From: Methanoplanus endosymbiosus
GTDB lineage: Archaea; Halobacteriota; Methanomicrobia; Methanomicrobiales; Methanomicrobiaceae
Assembly: GCF_024662215.1 (NCBI RefSeq)
Contig: NZ_CP096115.1
Location: forward strand, 558,001 to 622,000
Length of the DNA: 64,000 bases
Reading direction: 5' to 3'
Numbering within the stretch: position 1 is the stretch's first letter; each line of letters opens with the position of its first letter. The translations under genes were made by a program, and so were the position numbers. The notes under the pieces were generated by a model. That model saw only the letters and a program-made list of their open reading frames with translations. It had not been told where the DNA came from and did not search any database. Positions 30,959-42,272 of the stretch are shown in pieces.

Positions 30959-32143
30959 TCAATAATAATGAGTATATTCTAAATAAAATAAGTTTGTAAC
31001 TATTCGCCCTATCAATTCTTGAACTCTGTATGGATTTCCCTGAAATAACCTTTTAAGAGCCCCAAATACAGATTTGCCGCATTTTCTGACTGTTGAAATA
31101 TAACTTCTAATTCTGCAGAACCTTTCTGCACCGGCAATAGATCTAAAGGTACCCGATATTTTCTGTTGTACTTTCATCATGCGTACATCTCTCTCTGCAA
31201 GGTTGTTTGTAAATGGGACTAAGGAATTGTACATGAACCGCAGTATATCTTCTTCATAATCTCTGAGCCTAACAAGTAAGTTGAAAGGTTTTGAATTTTT
31301 TACTCGCCCTCTTTGCCCGGCTTTTTTTTCAGCAGGAGGTGGATTTTCTTTGAATCCAGATTCAATTATTTTCATATATTTAATTCGGAATTTTTCAAGC
31401 TCTAAAGGATCCTTTTTATCCTCAATGAAAATATAATGGTAAATTTGCTTATAAAGATCAATCATATCCTTTGCCCAATTTTGTTTGTATCCTTCCCAAA
31501 CTCCGTTTAATTCTCTCATTATATGGGCATTGCAATAAGAATGTGTACAATTATATTTTGAATAACCAACCCAAAAATCATGTACTAATACACCATCATA
31601 CTGTGGAAGTACTCCCATTTCATCAGTTGCAACAGATCCTCTTTTAGGATGTACTGCGTACAATGTCAGGTGTTCATTTCCAATTGAATGAAGCCACCAT
31701 CTTTCTCCTATAACTCTAAGCCCAGTTTCATCAGCATTTAATACAGAGGATTTAATCAATTCCTCTCTTAAATCATATTCAAACTTATTAAGAGTTGTAT
31801 GAGCGTTTTTTTCAAATGCAATTATTGTGGCTGGGCTTATGCTGATACAGTGTTGATCAATGAAATATGTCTTTTCTTTCTCATACGATGTGAATATCTG
31901 ATTTTTAATGTATAGCGCATTCGTTTTTAAATTATCTCCATACTGGACAGTTTGATTAACATTTTCCGGGAAAGGACCCACTATTCTACGCCCGCATTTT
32001 GGACAATACTTAACTTCTGCCCTAAATTCGGTTATGCGGGGATCCACAGGTGGAGTGTCAAAAACTTGCCGACGAATATATTTTTCAGATTCCACATCGC
32101 TGAGATCATTCCCACAAGGACATGTGTTAACCTCATAATAGTT
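30959..32143 (-). pseudogene. IS66-family transposase, 5' truncated
   Basis: About 395 codons of an IS66 TnpC-type transposase. The DDE residues are present: Asp in VLNADETGLRV, Asp in VLVHDFWVGY and Glu in NNLAERDVRMM. The frame extends upstream of the GTG at 32095 through CPCGNDLSD, the first half of the zinc finger whose second half is CPKCG, but then meets a stop with no start codon. The usual N-terminal leader of about 100 residues and the left IS end are absent. It is therefore a remnant bordering the nrd operon. Confidence 0.8.
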
Positions 32144-32241
32144 TCAAAAAAATTAATGTGTCGACCAGCGAATGATTCTAAAGTAAAAGAAAATTTATTC
32201 CAAATTATAACTTAAAAAACGTTAATTTGAGGGGAAATAAT

Positions 32242-32685
32242 TTGCAGATCTACGTGAATTCTATTGTTTATAACAAGTCTATCTCAGATGGACCAGGTAT
32301 CAGATCAGTTGTATATTTACAAGGATGTACCAGACATTGTCAAGGATGTCATAATAAAAGTACATGGGCCACAAATTGTGGTCTTAAATATGATGTAGCT
32401 AAACTTGCACAAGAGCTTAAGGAAAATACTTTAAATCAAAAAATTACAATTTCTGGGGGAGAACCCTTATTTCAAAAGAAAGCTGTTATATCTTTAATTA
32501 AAGAACTCAAAGAATGTAATCTTTGTCTTTATACAAGTCACAATTACGACGAAGTTCCGATTGAGATATTGCCTTATTTAAATTATCTTAAAGTTGGTAA
32601 ATATGAACAGAAATTCCGATGTACCACTATTCCCTACATTGGATCAACCAACCAAAAATTCATAGAACTTAATAAGGAGGACTAA
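32242..32685 (+). CDS. nrdG: Anaerobic ribonucleotide reductase activase (radical SAM)
   Basis: 147 residues from TTG 32242, preceded by GAGGGG at 7 bases. It has the radical-SAM cluster motif CTRHCQGC near residue 29 and ISGGEPL near 75. NrdG uses AdoMet to place the glycyl radical on NrdD. It is followed 2 bases later by nrdD. An AT-rich box (caaattataactta) about 45 bp upstream is a plausible promoter. The neighbourhood is more AT-rich than the flanks, a sign of transfer. Confidence 0.9.
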   Translation: MQIYVNSIVYNKSISDGPGIRSVVYLQGCTRHCQGCHNKSTWATNCGLKYDVAKLAQELKENTLNQKITISGGEPLFQKKAVISLIKELKECNLCLYTSHNYDEVPIEILPYLNYLKVGKYEQKFRCTTIPYIGSTNQKFIELNKED

Positions 32686-32687
32686 TT

Positions 32688-34385
32688 TTGGGAGAAAATA
32701 ATGAGAATGCATCAGATAGGAAAAGTTATGTGGGTTCTCTTTTCAATCTTGGAACAAATTTTGCAAAAAAAGAAACTTTGGATAATCTCCCAAAAGATTG
32801 GAGTGAACTCCATGTTAATGGACAAATTTACATCCATGATTTAAATGCTTATGGAAGAACATATAATTGTCTTAATTTCGACCTTCTGAAGAAATTTCCT
32901 TTTGAGCAATTAAATATATATAATGATACTCAGAAAATTTTGGAAACATTCAGGTATTTTAGAGATATTATTACAAAAATAGGTAATGAACAGTCTGGAG
33001 GTATGGGATTTCCAAATTTTGATGAAGAAATTTCAATTATTTTTAATAGGCTTCATATTGAAGCCAATGACAAAAATCTGGAACTTCTTGCAGCATCAAT
33101 ATTTTCTTTTATATTATGGATAAATGGGGTGCATGAAAGATGTGGCCAGACAAGTTATTATGTAACATTAAACCTTGGTTTAGCTACTGATTTTATTGGA
33201 CAAAAAGTTACAGGATATGCGCTAGATGCCTTTCGAAGATCTGGTGCAAAAGTATTCAAACCAAATATTGTATTTAAAGTAAAAGAAGGTATCAATCTAA
33301 AAAAATCAGACCCTAATTACTTTCTTTTTGAACTGGCTTTGTCGACAACATGTGAAAAAATGATACCCACTTATATCTTATGTGATTCTGAATCAAATAA
33401 AAATATAAACCCTAAAAATCTTTCAGTGATGGGCTGTCGAACACGTGTTGTTCACAACATTTTTGGTGAATCTACCGGGATTGGCAGAGGTAATATTGCA
33501 AACATTACTATTAATCTTCCAAAAATCGCATTAGAGGTAAATACTGCTTATCCTTCAGTCGAAACAGAACAAAAAGTATCATTATTTATTGAAAAGTGGA
33601 AAAAAGTTGCTTCTTTAGTAGTAGATATTCTGATGGACAGATATAAAAAACTCATTCAAATGGATAAAAGCTACTTTCCAACAAATACGGCTTATGACTT
33701 ATGGATAAATGATTTTTCTACTGCTCCAACACTTGAAGAAATTTTTCGTAATGGAACCCAAGCACTTGGATTTATTGGATTGTCCGAAACCATTGAGATA
33801 CTTTCTGGTTCACGTTATTATGAAACAGATTATGGAACAGAGATTGCAATGAAAATTGTAAGTGAAATGCGTGCATATACTGACAATTTGATAGAAGTTC
33901 ATAATCTTAATTTCTCATTACTAGCAACTGCAGGGGAACAAATTTCGGGAGTCCTTCCTGAAAAGGATAGTATGAATTATTGTCATCCTGTCCTTGAGAA
34001 AGAGTTCTATACAAACTCTTTCCATGTAAATGTTGATTCTGGTCTTACACCTTTTGAAAAAATTGAAAAAGAAGGTCCATTTCATACCTTATGTAATGGA
34101 GGATGTATTTCTTACGTAGAATTTCAGTCAGCTCCTATCTCCAATACTGAGGCTCTCTACGAGTTAGTCTGCCATGGCATTACCTGTGGTGTTCATTACC
34201 TAGGATTTAATTTCCCTATTGATTTGTGTAATAAATGCGGAGAAAAAGGAGTTTTTGACATTTGTGATTCTTGTGGAAGTGATGATATAACTCGCATCCG
34301 TAGAGTATCTGGATATCTGGAAGTATTAGATTATTTCACCACAGGAAAGAAAAATGAAGTAAAAAAACGTCGACCAAATACATAG
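32688..34385 (+). CDS. nrdD: Class III (anaerobic) ribonucleotide reductase
   Basis: 565 residues from TTG 32688, with AAGGAGG 8 bases upstream. Signs of class III enzymes: IYIHDLNAYGRTYNC near the start, the conserved cysteines in ERCGQTS and VMGCRTR, the C-terminal zinc site CNKCG...CDSCGS and the glycyl-radical motif RRVSGYL. It makes deoxyribonucleotides without oxygen. The N-terminal ATP-cone found in many chromosomal NrdD proteins is absent, giving a compact form like those of phages. Directly linked to nrdG and thymidylate kinase. Confidence 0.92.
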   Translation: MGENNENASDRKSYVGSLFNLGTNFAKKETLDNLPKDWSELHVNGQIYIHDLNAYGRTYNCLNFDLLKKFPFEQLNIYNDTQKILETFRYFRDIITKIGNEQSGGMGFPNFDEEISIIFNRLHIEANDKNLELLAASIFSFILWINGVHERCGQTSYYVTLNLGLATDFIGQKVTGYALDAFRRSGAKVFKPNIVFKVKEGINLKKSDPNYFLFELALSTTCEKMIPTYILCDSESNKNINPKNLSVMGCRTRVVHNIFGESTGIGRGNIANITINLPKIALEVNTAYPSVETEQKVSLFIEKWKKVASLVVDILMDRYKKLIQMDKSYFPTNTAYDLWINDFSTAPTLEEIFRNGTQALGFIGLSETIEILSGSRYYETDYGTEIAMKIVSEMRAYTDNLIEVHNLNFSLLATAGEQISGVLPEKDSMNYCHPVLEKEFYTNSFHVNVDSGLTPFEKIEKEGPFHTLCNGGCISYVEFQSAPISNTEALYELVCHGITCGVHYLGFNFPIDLCNKCGEKGVFDICDSCGSDDITRIRRVSGYLEVLDYFTTGKKNEVKKRRPNT

Positions 34386-34417
34386 TTCATGTTTAAATAA
34401 TCACTGGAGATAAATCA

Positions 34418-35014
34418 ATGGAAAATAGACCAAAATTGCATATATCGATTGAAGGTATGGATGGCGTAGGTAAAAGTACTACATCAAAAATGCTAGCAGA
34501 AAAACTAGATCTAATCCTTGTTGAAAAACCTCTCCATTATCTTCTAGAGAATGAGGGCAGTATAGAAAATTACCTTAAAATTCGTGATTATGTAAATAAG
34601 CAGGAAGATCGTGTTTTTACTTCATGGTTTTACGGACTTGGAAATGTATATCTTTATCATAAATTTAAAGGACAAAAAATTATTACTGACAGACATTTGC
34701 TCTCTAATTATTGCTGGAGCGGCACTACTGAAAGTGAGATAGTGTTTGATGCACTGGTAAATGCTCTTGGCCAACCGGATTTTACATTTGTTCTAAAAGC
34801 AGACGAAAAAGTTGTTAGGAAAAGACTTATTGAAAGAAATATAGAGGATCCAGATCTTCCAAAAATAAATTTTATTCCTGAAGCTTATAAGAAGATGGAA
34901 GCGTTCTTAAAGAAATATCATATGAAATCTGCAATAATCAATACTACCTCACTTAACCAGGATGAAGTGTGTGAAATCATTATTAAAAAACTTAAATCTG
35001 AAGGTCTGGTATAA
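34418..35014 (+). CDS. tmk: Thymidylate kinase
   Basis: 198 residues. P-loop EGMDGVGKSTTSKML near residue 13, a DRHLLSNYCW segment in place of the usual DRY/DRF motif, and a lid-like arginine stretch (RKRLIERNIEDPD). It phosphorylates dTMP to dTDP. It lies 32 bp after nrdD with GGAG before the ATG. With NrdG/NrdD it forms a deoxynucleotide supply set. The LRR gene starts on the base after its stop. Confidence 0.87.
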   Translation: MENRPKLHISIEGMDGVGKSTTSKMLAEKLDLILVEKPLHYLLENEGSIENYLKIRDYVNKQEDRVFTSWFYGLGNVYLYHKFKGQKIITDRHLLSNYCWSGTTESEIVFDALVNALGQPDFTFVLKADEKVVRKRLIERNIEDPDLPKINFIPEAYKKMEAFLKKYHMKSAIINTTSLNQDEVCEIIIKKLKSEGLV

Positions 35015-36688
35015 ATGGCTAATGAAAAAATTGTCTGTGATACACTTTTTATTGATATGAAATATGTTATTTTGTATCATAAACTTGGGTTTGAAGAGAC
35101 ATCTCCAGATATATTTGAAAAAAGTTTCAATGACGGCAATATCGTCATTTTTTCAGAAAATCAAAATTTTTATTATAAAAATAAATATTATCCCCTTCTT
35201 GATCACAAAGATTTTGTAATTCTGGAATGCCTCAACCGATTATTAGAAATAGGTTATTCCTCAGATGAGATTTATCTTAATAGTAATTACTATGATATTG
35301 AATTAATTCAAAATGAAATACCTCTGCTAAACATCATTTGTGAACAATGGGGAGATGATTTTAAAGGAAAAATTGATTCATTTCAAAATTTAAAAGAGAT
35401 TCCTTGTGTAATTTATACATCTAAATTATCAGGTGGTCTAATTGATGTGATCAGTTCCATCTTTTATAGAAATAATATCTATAATCATGGAATTTTTGAA
35501 GATGGATGTGTCCCATTCAATTTTAAAGAATCAGATTTATGGAATTCAATTCAGATAAATGAATACCCTCCTGATTTTGAAGTAGAAAATGATGTCCTTC
35601 TCAAATATTCTGGAAACGATGAAAATGTTATAATTCCTGCTGGAATTATAAAAATAGAATCAGGGGCATTCTGGAATTGTACCTTTATTTCTACTGTATA
35701 TATACCTGAGACTGTTCATTCAATTGGCGGAGATGCATTTGTATATTGTACAAACTTATTGAAAATAAACTTGCCTTCAAGTCTAAATGAAATCGGGGAT
35801 GACCCATTTGCAGGGTGCCTTTCAATAAGAATTGAAAATGATAGTGATGCCTTTATACTTGAAAATGGCGTTCTATTTGATCGTGAAAAAAAGAGACTGA
35901 TCCATTATAATTCAAACAATATAAGTAAAGATTACACCATTCCAAACACTGTTGAATGGATTGGTAAACATAGCTTTTATAAATGCAACTATCTTGAAAA
36001 AGTGGTGATCTCAGAGAATGTTAATTTTATGGGGAACAATCCTTTCTCAGATTGCGAAAATCTGATTCTAGAGAATCACAGCCCACACTTTGTTTATGAA
36101 AATGGCGCTCTCCTTAATCATGACAAAACTTTGCTTATGCATTATTCTAAGGGACTAAAAAAAGAGAAATATATAATTCCTGATACTGTTCGTACTATCG
36201 GCCGAAATTCTTTTTGGAATTGTATTAATTTGAGGAAAGTGGTCATTCCAGAAAGTGTTCGACAATTGGGATATAATCCATTTTCTCATTGTACAAACCT
36301 AGAACTGGAAAATCATAGCCAATTTTATGCAGAAAATAATGGAATTCTTTACGATAGAGATTACAAAGAACTTGTGTGTTGCACAAATATTACTGCACAG
36401 AAAGGTGTAATTATTCCAGATGGTCTTCTTAGTATCGGGAGAAATTCATTCAGTGGTTGCGAAAGTCTTGAAAAAATTATTATTCCTGATTCGGTAAAAA
36501 CCATAGCAAGAGGTGCATTTAGTGATTGTACTAAATTAAAGGATGTTACACTGCCAAAAAATCTTGAGAGTATAGGAGAATGGGCATTTAGCTACTGTGA
36601 AAATTTAAAGTCTATTGAAATAACTTCTTCGACAAAAACTGCAATTAACTCTTTTCGTGGAACTGATGTGGAGATTATCATAAAATGA
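35015..36688 (+). CDS. BspA-like leucine-rich-repeat protein with novel N-terminus
   Basis: 557 residues. From about 195 to the end it contains many LRR_5 (BspA-type) repeats of about 23 residues with the pattern IPETVHSIGGDAFVYCTNL, some split by longer inserts of the form ENGVLFDREKK. Such repeats bind proteins. The N-terminal 190 residues (CDTLFIDMKYVILYHKLGF onward) match nothing I can name; there is no signal peptide, so it is cytoplasmic. ATG follows the tmk stop without a gap and its stop overlaps the methyltransferase start by ATGA, so it is tightly linked to DNA metabolism genes. Confidence 0.72.
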   Translation: MANEKIVCDTLFIDMKYVILYHKLGFEETSPDIFEKSFNDGNIVIFSENQNFYYKNKYYPLLDHKDFVILECLNRLLEIGYSSDEIYLNSNYYDIELIQNEIPLLNIICEQWGDDFKGKIDSFQNLKEIPCVIYTSKLSGGLIDVISSIFYRNNIYNHGIFEDGCVPFNFKESDLWNSIQINEYPPDFEVENDVLLKYSGNDENVIIPAGIIKIESGAFWNCTFISTVYIPETVHSIGGDAFVYCTNLLKINLPSSLNEIGDDPFAGCLSIRIENDSDAFILENGVLFDREKKRLIHYNSNNISKDYTIPNTVEWIGKHSFYKCNYLEKVVISENVNFMGNNPFSDCENLILENHSPHFVYENGALLNHDKTLLMHYSKGLKKEKYIIPDTVRTIGRNSFWNCINLRKVVIPESVRQLGYNPFSHCTNLELENHSQFYAENNGILYDRDYKELVCCTNITAQKGVIIPDGLLSIGRNSFSGCESLEKIIIPDSVKTIARGAFSDCTKLKDVTLPKNLESIGEWAFSYCENLKSIEITSSTKTAINSFRGTDVEIIIK

Positions 36689-37524
36689 ATTTTTCACATA
36701 TATCTGACTATGGCAAGCCTAATGCCAACAATATTTTAATTGAAGGAGAAAACCTCATTGTTTTAAATCAATTATTAGAAGAGTATGAAAAGAATATTGA
36801 TGTAATCATTATTGATCCACCATATAATACTGATATTCATTATATCGGTTATAAGGACACTGCCTTTATCGGAGGGTGGGGAAAATTTATGAAAAACAGA
36901 CTTTCAATTGCAAAGGAATTTTTATCAGAAACTGGCGTTATGTTTATAAATATTGATGAAAATGAACTTGTAACTCTTTTAAATATATGTTATGGATTAT
37001 TTGGTTTAAATAATGTGAACTTATTAGTCTGGCCTAAGGTGGACGTTCGTTTCGATAAAAACCGAATTGAAAAATCAATAAAAAACATACGCTCAGCTCA
37101 TGAGTATATTATACTTTGTTATAATAATAAAGAAAAGACTCATTTTAAAAATACATCTGAAGATAAGCCTCTTGAATCTGTTATATTTGGACTTGGAACA
37201 ACATCCTCAGCAAAGGATGAAATTGCAGAACTTCTTGGAGATCGAACAAAGTTCTCTACACCAAAACCTGTTGCTCTTATAAAAGAATTGATTCATGTGT
37301 CTTCAAATAAATCATCAATAATTCTTGATTTTTTTGCAGGAAGCGGCACAACGGGTCACGCTGTAATGGATCTTAATAATGAAGACGGAGGATTTAGAAA
37401 ATTCATCCTTATAACCAATAATGAAAGTAATATTTGTAAATCTGTAACATGTCCACGCCTAAAGAATTGCATTAAGATTAACAAATATTCAGATGGATTT
37501 TCATTTTTTAAGGCCGAATACTGA
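36685..37524 (+). CDS. Small beta-class DNA methyltransferase
   Basis: 279 residues, about half the size of a type III Mod. Catalytic DPPYNTDIHY near residue 52 precedes the AdoMet motif FFAGSGTTGHAV near 215, the beta-class order. The region between them is short, leaving little room for a target-recognition domain. A late Cys cluster (CKSVTCPRLKNC) near the end could bind metal. It starts inside the LRR stop codon (ATGA). It could be an orphan or phage-type adenine or N4-cytosine methylase, perhaps with the LRR protein supplying specificity; that is inference. Confidence 0.8.
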   Translation: MNFSHISDYGKPNANNILIEGENLIVLNQLLEEYEKNIDVIIIDPPYNTDIHYIGYKDTAFIGGWGKFMKNRLSIAKEFLSETGVMFINIDENELVTLLNICYGLFGLNNVNLLVWPKVDVRFDKNRIEKSIKNIRSAHEYIILCYNNKEKTHFKNTSEDKPLESVIFGLGTTSSAKDEIAELLGDRTKFSTPKPVALIKELIHVSSNKSSIILDFFAGSGTTGHAVMDLNNEDGGFRKFILITNNESNICKSVTCPRLKNCIKINKYSDGFSFFKAEY

Positions 37525-40232: not shown

Positions 40233-40790
40233 GGGAGAACGGAACTGGTGTGTGCGACAAGAAAAGCTGTAACATAGATTGCGTAAGCTATCCTCTTCGT
40301 TTGGGATATCTCTACCGCAGCATGCATTTTTGGTAACAGATTTGTGTGAAGCCTGTGGAACAACGTGGAGAAAATCAGGAGTCTAACCTGATCAATCTGC
40401 CAGAGAAAGGATGCCATGGAGAAGCAAACGCTGAATCATCGTATGGGTCGTTATCCGTGACAAGCGAAATTTAGGCTGCTGCGCTTGAACCAAAATGGTA
40501 TGGAATCAGGTTATGTTGAAAACACCAACGATATAACAAACGAACAGACGGTTCCCGGCTTAGAGATGGCTCCTAAAGCATCTATATTATCTATGTTACG
40601 GAACTTGGAAACCCGTATATACTCCCAATTAGGGTATGAAAGTCGTGAGACTAACAAAAGGTATAGACGGAATAGGATGTCCCAAGAAGCGAATGCCTGC
40701 CTGTGATGGGTTGGATAGAGGTTGTTACCTCGACTTGAAAGGGTGCAGACGTGGGACAGGTATTCCTAAGCAATGAAGGAAGGTAAACTT

Positions 40791-42272
40791 ATGAAAGTAT
40801 GTCATTCAACGACGCATAATTGCGAGAAGCATACTGACAGGGATCTTGCCCGGCAATGGAACTCCATTGACTGGGACAAAACAAGAGACACTGTTAACCG
40901 GCTACAGATCCGGATTGCAAAGGCAACAAAAGAAGAAAATTGGAATTTGGTAAAACGTCTTTCTTACCTGTTAACTCATTCAAGGTCAGCAAAACTAGTG
41001 GCCGTACGAATTGTTACACAGAATAGAGGTAAGCGTACACCCGGCATAGACGGAGAAATCTGGAACTCAGCATCTGCAAAGATGCAGGCAGTTCTGAGCC
41101 TCACAGACAAAAACTACTGTGCAAAACCATTACGACGTATTTATATCCCTAAACCTGGTAAGAATACAAAGCGACCTATCTCAATTCCATCCATGTATGA
41201 TCGGGCAATGCAGGCCCTCTATGGGCTGGCCTTACAGCCAATCGCAGAAACAACAGCAGACCCACGTTCATTTGGATTTAGACTTTTTAGATCAGCACAG
41301 GATGCATCAGAATATGCATTTACGTGCTTAGGAAGAAAGACATCATCCACATGGATTCTGGAAGGAGACATCCGGGGATGCTTTGATAATATCAACCATG
41401 AATGGCTTAAGGAACATATACCTATGGATCAATCAATCCTTAAACAGTTCCTAAAATCGGGATTTGTCTTTGATAATTCTCTTTTTCCGACAGACAAAGG
41501 TACTCCGCAGGGAGGTATTGTGTCTCCAATTCTTGCGAATATGACACTCGATGGAATTGAACATATTCTTGATGAACAATTCCAAAATATGAAAGTTCAC
41601 TTTATTCGCTATGCAGATGACTTTCTGGTCACTGCACCTACAGAGGAAATCGCAAAAGAAGCAAAGGAGATAATAAAAGAATTCCTCGCAATAAGAGGCC
41701 TGGAATTATCGGAAGAGAAAACGTTGATTACTCATATCAACAATGGCTTTGACTTTTTGGGGTACAATTTCCGGAAATATAAAGGAAAACTCCTCATTAA
41801 ACCATCGGAGAAATCAATCAAGTCAATTACTGATAAAATTAGGACTAAAGTTAAAAAAGCCCGAGCATGGTCTCAGGAGGAATTGATAAAGGTATTAAAT
41901 CCAACCATACGAGGTTGGGTAAATTATCATCGTCATAATGCAGCCAAGGAAACTTTCCAGAAATTAGATCACTATCTCTGGACAGTAACCTGGAAATGGG
42001 GTAAACGTCGACACACTAACAAAGGTCGCAAATGGGTAGCAAGTAAATATTGGCATGTGGAAGGCAAAAGAAAATGGGTTTTCAAAACAGAAGAGAATAC
42101 GTTAATACAATTCTCTGAAGCTCCCATCCGTAGACACTCTTACCCAAAACTTAATGCTAATCCTTATCTTGACAGGAAATATTTTCTCAAAAGAAAGGAC
42201 AGGATGAGAAGACAAACACCATGGTTCCAAACAAAATTATCTTATTTTGCTCTGTCGCCCGTTAATGGGTAG
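40791..42272 (+). CDS. ltrA: Group II intron reverse transcriptase/maturase
   Basis: 493 residues from ATG 40791, with GGAAGG 8-10 bases upstream (ATG 40773 also possible). Reverse-transcriptase motifs: RRIYIPKPGKNTKRPISIP, the GTPQGGIVSPILAN box and the catalytic FIRYADDFLV. A GIIM maturase domain (LNPTIRGWVNYHRHNAAKETF) follows. The usual C-terminal HNH endonuclease motif is not evident; the tail instead has FKTEENTLIQFSEAPIRRHSYP, common in HNH-less archaeal and bacterial lineages. It would splice and re-insert the intron RNA. Confidence 0.93.
   Translation: MKVCHSTTHNCEKHTDRDLARQWNSIDWDKTRDTVNRLQIRIAKATKEENWNLVKRLSYLLTHSRSAKLVAVRIVTQNRGKRTPGIDGEIWNSASAKMQAVLSLTDKNYCAKPLRRIYIPKPGKNTKRPISIPSMYDRAMQALYGLALQPIAETTADPRSFGFRLFRSAQDASEYAFTCLGRKTSSTWILEGDIRGCFDNINHEWLKEHIPMDQSILKQFLKSGFVFDNSLFPTDKGTPQGGIVSPILANMTLDGIEHILDEQFQNMKVHFIRYADDFLVTAPTEEIAKEAKEIIKEFLAIRGLELSEEKTLITHINNGFDFLGYNFRKYKGKLLIKPSEKSIKSITDKIRTKVKKARAWSQEELIKVLNPTIRGWVNYHRHNAAKETFQKLDHYLWTVTWKWGKRRHTNKGRKWVASKYWHVEGKRKWVFKTEENTLIQFSEAPIRRHSYPKLNANPYLDRKYFLKRKDRMRRQTPWFQTKLSYFALSPVNG

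Follow-up and report, generated by a model that had tools for sequence, protein, structure and literature searches.

The window, i.e., the whole stretch of 64,000 nucleotides analyzed here, corresponds to C1:558001-622000 of a complete 3.16 Mb genome, and its positions 32242-37524 contain a cassette of five intact open reading frames (ORFs) on the same strand, which encode NrdG, NrdD, a thymidylate-kinase-like kinase, a leucine-rich-repeat (LRR) protein, and a DNA methylase (Table 1). The initial annotation of this DNA described five tightly packed genes in an AT-rich block, and both features were confirmed, given that the intergenic gaps are of 2, 32, 0, and -4 bp (the last being an ATGA overlap of the LRR and methylase genes) and that the GC content is 31.6%, in comparison with 41.2% for the rest of the window. 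The borders that it proposed, an IS66 remnant and a truncated TIM-barrel gene, were both found as well. The ORF list offers position 32227 as an alternative start of the NrdG gene, and the search for terminal repeats around the block returned nothing convincing. Besides the cassette, the segment 30995-45374 of the window includes two IS66-type transposases and a reverse transcriptase/maturase-like ORF (40773-42272).

Table 1. Features of the cassette, its borders, and a protein family found beside its relatives; positions are those of the window, except where a locus handle is given.
Feature	Position	Strand	Remark
NrdG-type radical-SAM activase, 147 aa	32242..32685	+	TTG start after GAGGGG
Compact class III ribonucleotide reductase (RNR) NrdD, 565 aa	32688..34385	+	TTG start after GGAGGA
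Thymidylate-kinase-like (d)NMP kinase, 198 aa	34418..35014	+	Pfam Thymidylate_kin
Cytoplasmic LRR_5 protein, 557 aa, cassette core	35015..36688	+	LRR_5
N-terminal domain of the LRR protein, ~160 aa, inactive-looking PD-(D/E)XK/restriction-endonuclease-like fold	35015..35500	+	AF2 + Foldseek
Beta-class N6-A/N4-C DNA methylase, type III Mod-like, without target-recognition region (TRD), 279 aa	36685..37524	+	N6_N4_Mtase
IS66 transposase (border)	30959-32095	-	Without the first ~41 model positions
Decayed TIM-barrel fragment with stops (border)	~37.53-37.78 kb	-	Sequence
KCGHVG protein, examples	L040:7009-7416, L054:7429-7875, L071:6878-7324		

The NrdG protein matches Fer4_12 (5.7e-24), the NrdG model TIGR02491 (1.3e-29, which is under the cut-off of that model), and phrog_626 (2.5e-29), and its cysteine motif is kept in the relatives. 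The pVip profiles are matched at 23-28 bits, the match to the NrdG family being far stronger, and the protein falls outside the viperin family of radical SAM proteins. The NrdD protein matches Pfam NRDD (9e-101), with the model filled from position 1 and starting at residue 6, and the Pfam domain search found no ATP-cone in its 565 aa, as expected from the compact enzyme described initially. The T4-type NrdD is likewise compact, and the ATP-cone is not a requirement for membership of the class III RNRs. In a profile alignment to the T4 NrdD (1h78), C61 falls on the NC motif, C250 on MGCR, and C514/517/526/529 on the zinc-type cysteines, and the glycyl-radical site (G542, in RVSGY) lies near the C-terminus, with each of these residues kept in at least 92% of 39 NrdD relatives. 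The protein thus has the glycyl radical site, the thiyl cysteine (MGCR), and the second cysteine of a class III RNR, the latter (C61-type) being used by the formate-type enzymes.

The cassette NrdD was also considered as a duplicate of the host RNR, which was rejected, given that the host NrdD differs and bears an intein-like insert; the other full-length NrdD matches in the 148 genomes of the phylum are at best ~27-30% identical. In the host NrdD (G000 C1:2975989-2979153; L001, L004), the intein-like insert is found beside a conserved N-terminal active-site-type cysteine, and no glycyl-radical motif is present where the ORF ends. The C-terminal NrdD domain is matched by another ORF, 1.3 Mb away (C1:1674623-1674838, L003), and free-standing C-terminal NrdD ORFs of 121-173 aa, found in many genomes of the same order, represent a split class III RNR.

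The kinase matches Pfam Thymidylate_kin (7.3e-15) and scores 50.5 bits against the NCBIfam dTMP kinase model (TIGR00041), the cut-off of which is 83.25. The earlier name, thymidylate kinase, thus holds for the family (Thymidylate_kin 7e-15) and not for the identity as a dTMP kinase; from the profiles, membership of the superfamily is clear, and the protein is better named a thymidylate-kinase-like dNMP/NMP kinase. Its P-loop (GxDGVGKxT) and T-D-R motif are kept in 37 relatives, and among the PADLOC profiles it matches PDC-M51B (8.6e-17) and VakA, the viperin-associated kinase (7.3e-12).

The LRR protein matches LRR_5 (4.4e-59) and is the sole LRR_5 protein of the genome. The AF2 model of its N-terminal domain (pLDDT 88.8) was compared with the PDB through Foldseek, and the best match was BsaXI, a type IIB restriction-modification (R-M) enzyme (probability 1.00, E 3.5e-3, TMq 0.39), with HincII in second place at a low probability, while among the BFVD viral models a Hjc resolvase was matched with a probability of 0.91. 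The HMM search of the domain against the PDB sequences returned matches to the LRR edge only, and the PADLOC type IIG match to residues 20-91 of the protein is weak. In the 38 sequences aligned, the acidic position of D...(D/E)xK varies and W112 is invariant (38/38 rows) at the position where the lysine of E-x-K is expected, leaving the domain without the PD-(D/E)XK catalytic motif. Because the catalytic lysine position is a tryptophan in all these sequences, the domain is predicted to be an inactive, restriction-enzyme-like one, with moderate confidence in the modeled fold.

The small DNA methylase that closes the cassette stood up to examination (279 aa; N6_N4_Mtase 8.2e-34, i.e., about 8e-34), with DPPY and FAGSGTT intact, in the beta-class order, and a DPPY-to-FAGSG distance of 171 aa. 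Its best match in both the PDB and PADLOC is of the EcoP15I Mod type (4zcf). The beta-order DPPY and FxGxG of a type III Mod are present, and the TRD that would separate the catalytic from the SAM motif is missing, given that residues ~256-382 of EcoP15I, the TRD stretch, are without a counterpart in the alignment. No large helicase-nuclease gene (Res) is found within the cassette at any locus.

Relatives were sought by alignment of the kinase in 84,980 species genomes, which yielded 37 with 44-59% identity, from Lokiarchaeota, Heimdall- and Hodarchaeota, Methanomicrobia, Methanomassiliicoccales, Clostridia, Bacilli, Spirochaetota, and one Bacteroidota MAG. Among 50,697 phage records, the kinase matched a single one, the human-gut phage NatCom_17901, in which all five cassette genes follow one another as in the window, with 37-53% identity to the window copy; they are annotated there as the small and large subunits of an anaerobic RNR, a “thymidylate kinase”, and two “hypothetical proteins”. 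One distinct IMG/VR contig has NrdG-NrdD-phosphoesterase-kinase and runs to the contig end, and the scan of viral contigs with NrdD was without result. No plasmid matched the cassette kinase, and a plasmid origin was rejected on this basis.

In the 39 loci obtained through the kinase or phage scans, every cassette gene that the contig can hold is present and colinear, in the fixed order NrdG-NrdD-(phosphoesterase)-kinase-LRR-methylase. The methylase is found in 29 of the 32 loci whose contig does not break off ahead of it, and the phosphoesterase, which, like the RNR, the kinase, and the methylase, keeps its catalytic residues, in 21 of the 39. Given that these loci had been chosen by the kinase, the linkage was re-tested with the N-terminal domain of the LRR protein as the query in 395 genomes from the class to which one Bacilli member belongs, where the domain was found in eight genomes, four of them new loci, all with adjacent NrdG, NrdD, and kinase genes (4/4). 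This domain occurs once per genome and inside the cassette in all 16 cassette genomes, in which its other matches are to the LRR edge or to an adjoining degraded stretch only.

In 18 loci, a single protein of 806-835 aa comprises both the LRR protein and the methylase, so that the methylase was not added later. The five genes also diverge in parallel from copy to copy (r 0.66-0.83 between gene pairs; as high in none of 500 shuffles), which indicates that the block has been inherited as a unit. The initial annotation would have been undermined if the genes had proved to be scattered and unlinked elsewhere, or if the LRR and methylase genes had been inserted later. Neither is so, given the same order in about forty other loci on the one hand, and the 18 fusions and the r of 0.66-0.83 on the other; the reading of these two genes as hitch-hikers or as a separate insertion was rejected by the fusions, the linkage, and the correlated divergence.

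The cassette varies in its accessory genes. A second subtype, found in Lokiarchaeota and Bacillota (L043, L048, L049, and L165), lacks the methylase and has, in its place, a GT4 glycosyltransferase-Sel1-LRR protein, a phosphoesterase, and an AAA-LRR protein, and the sequences of L048, L049, and L165 have an HAD domain fused to NrdG. In L165, the phosphoesterase is fused to the GT4-Sel1-LRR protein, and a KCGHVG-type domain to the LRR. A family of ~140 aa (KCGHVG...RVKHHHKDAI), which has no match in Pfam, immediately precedes NrdG in most of the Bacillota copies, about 20 in number, and in that of the phage. A divergent CARF-HTH gene is located directly upstream of NrdG in some archaeal copies (L045, L046, L047, and L051, of which L046 is labeled “Patescibacteria”), and inspection of the sequences revealed XRE-type regulators in several Bacillota copies. 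The window copy is without the phosphoesterase, the KCGHVG-type gene, or any CARF neighbor. The 132 flanking proteins compared with PADLOC, PHROG, and Pfam include those of defense-type genes (Fic/SoFic, CARF, AAA/AriA-like, and Abi) among ordinary host genes, which records their presence only and implies no enrichment. One phage and two Clostridia (L040:4312-5581, L061:5693-7004, L065:316-1612) also have a recurrent gene pair close to the cassette, one gene being Abi_2-like (weak, E 0.0013) and the other having, by eye, a nucleotidyltransferase-like GS...DxD stretch.

In the NrdD tree, the cassette proteins form one clade (100/100), separated by a long branch from the six archaeal outgroup NrdDs, and the archaeal and bacterial copies are interleaved, the starred branches requiring the archaeal label to change at least three times. 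The “Patescibacteria” copy (L046) is nested among the Asgard copies, which may reflect a binning error. Among the 148 genomes of the window's phylum, the cassette-type NrdD is found in the window's own genome only, and a close kinase is present in no other genome among 295. In a congener (G218), the neighboring SbcCD genes are 88% identical, and the window segment 30995-45374 is absent at that site. Because of this restriction to its own genome within the phylum and the absence from the congener site, the block is most likely a recent, species-variable acquisition. Tandem large serine recombinases adjoin the cassette in L005, L040, and L070, and are a possible vehicle of transfer; a zinc-finger-like protein of 148 aa is also common to L005 and L040.

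Comparison of the copies establishes a conserved, mobile, cross-domain cassette in which the predicted catalytic residues of the RNR, the kinase, and the methylase are kept. Given this, the cassette is read here as a horizontally transferred, self-contained multi-enzyme system of bacteria and archaea, the likeliest role of which would be in conflict or defense, with a probability of about one half. The initial annotation had also proposed an undescribed module that links dNTP metabolism to DNA modification or defense, and the conserved unit in this proposal is upheld by the gene order, the fusions, and the correlated divergence, while the defense part is plausible only. A defensive role would be consistent with the kinase matches to the profiles of a viperin-associated kinase and a phage-defense candidate, the CARF-HTH neighbors, the TRD-less methylase, and the restriction-like head; the ordinary, functional appearance of NrdD, which may mean plain dNTP supply, argues against it, as do the Foldseek values behind the nuclease-like fold (E 3.5e-3, TM 0.39) and the lack of a phosphoesterase, a KCGHVG-type gene, and a CARF neighbor in the window copy.

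The main rival, rather unlikely in our judgment, is that these genes are the accessory metabolism of mobile elements, i.e., replication and anti-restriction gear of integrative elements or phages, in which NrdG, NrdD, and the kinase would supply dNTPs and methylation would shield the DNA of the element. This is consistent with the full cassette of NatCom_17901, which adjoins tandem large serine recombinases, with the same recombinase pair by the partial cassette of the IMG/VR contig and the two recombinases of L070, and with the frequency of NrdD and NrdG among phage genes. Even so, there are only two viral records, most copies are on genomic contigs where no phage structural genes are obvious in the vicinity, and dNTP supply leaves the strict need for an LRR/nuclease-like protein unexplained. 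The viral or plasmid-like replication equipment of the initial annotation is weak, with one match in 50,697 phage records, one IMG/VR contig, no plasmid kinase, and most copies in genome contigs.

A viperin-like antiviral nucleotide system, in which the kinase would feed a nucleotide, NrdG and NrdD would produce a (deoxy)nucleotide that poisons polymerases, and its detoxification for the host would fall to the phosphoesterase, is more doubtful still. In animals, CMPK2 provides CTP for viperin (PMC10058120). The cassette kinase matches the VakA and PDC-M51B profiles, the radical-SAM activase matches those of pVip weakly, and the phosphoesterase of 21/39 loci and the HAD-NrdG fusions would fit a detoxifying step, but NrdG is an activase rather than a viperin (pVip match of 23 bits), NrdD has all the canonical RNR residues and could make normal dNTPs, and the methylase is left unexplained. 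By contrast with these readings, a decayed or derived R-M system is very improbable. Here, the nuclease-like head, the LRR, and the methylase would be a type IIG/IIB-like enzyme with a dead nuclease, and the RNR and kinase would be hitch-hikers, which draws on the BsaXI fold match, the type III Mod-like methylase, and the weak PADLOC type IIG match to residues 20-91 of the LRR protein. The motif predicts no nuclease activity, and the RNR and kinase are not hitch-hikers, because no copy in either of the two domains of life is without them and their divergence runs parallel to that of the LRR and methylase genes, so that this explanation, as stated, is largely refuted by the linkage data.

Returning to the conflict or defense system, the nuclease-like head and the LRR would form a recognition arm that replaces the missing TRD and directs the methylase to a particular DNA or protein-DNA target. 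The kinase would phosphorylate an (unusual) monophosphate, NrdG would activate NrdD, and NrdD would reduce the corresponding NTP to the dNTP, so that a deoxynucleotide may be made or remodeled locally by the RNR and kinase, with the phosphoesterase or HAD partner of many relatives removing the excess or toxic product. A canonical class III RNR yields the dNTP directly, which leaves the part of a dNMP kinase puzzling and is counted against this scheme. Expression would be conditional, through the CARF-HTH or XRE regulators, and the likeliest purpose would be antiviral or inter-element defense. In its most specific form, which is put forward tentatively as a possibility, the cassette would represent a new cross-domain antiviral class, in which a special deoxynucleotide is the product of the RNR and its dedicated kinase, and DNA is marked or poisoned by the TRD-less methylase (or, in the second subtype, by a glycosyltransferase with the AAA-LRR protein) under the guidance of the dead-head LRR, with some copies switched on by CARF-sensed cyclic nucleotides.

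If the unit does work together, it would be an undescribed system common to Asgard archaea, methanogens, gut Firmicutes, and a gut phage, and would tie deoxynucleotide synthesis directly to DNA modification. Were this true, non-viperin radical-enzyme nucleotide chemistry would join the prokaryotic conflict systems, and the cassette would offer a candidate for an LRR-guided DNA methylase. The hosts whose lifestyle is evident from their names belong to anaerobic groups, which may explain why screens in aerobic E. coli missed the cassette.

We know of no defense system with the composition of this cassette. The open-licence PMC papers searched yielded no description of the gene combination, of PDC-M51, or of LRR methylases, and the PADLOC 2.0 profiles match single cassette proteins only; the architecture is, provisionally, categorically new. 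Its parts have recognizable counterparts, however. Phage T4 NrdD/NrdG share the compact form without an ATP-cone, both active-site cysteines, the Zn-type cysteines, and the glycyl radical site, whereas the cassette NrdD is a separate, long-branched clade, found in this survey only in the cassette and always with the kinase and LRR. The beta-class order of DPPY ... FAGSGTT is shared with the type III Mod of EcoP15I (4zcf), although the cassette methylase skips the TRD (about 125 residues), has no Res, and is fused or adjacent to the LRR protein.

The single-chain R-M enzymes, such as BsaXI (type IIB) and type IIG, resemble the fused copies, in which a predicted restriction-enzyme-like N-terminal domain and a DNA methylase lie on one chain, and differ from them in that the cassette proteins have an invariant tryptophan at the catalytic lysine, LRR repeats in mid-chain, and coupling to RNR and kinase genes. 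With the PADLOC candidate PDC-M51, the likeness is limited to the kinase (PDC-M51B), given that the remaining cassette proteins match none of its components among the PADLOC profiles. Finally, pVip with its VakA-type kinase, and CMPK2-viperin in animals, also bring together radical nucleotide chemistry and a nucleotide kinase at one locus, but the cassette does so with a glycyl-radical RNR and its activase instead of viperin, and adds a DNA methylase and an LRR protein.
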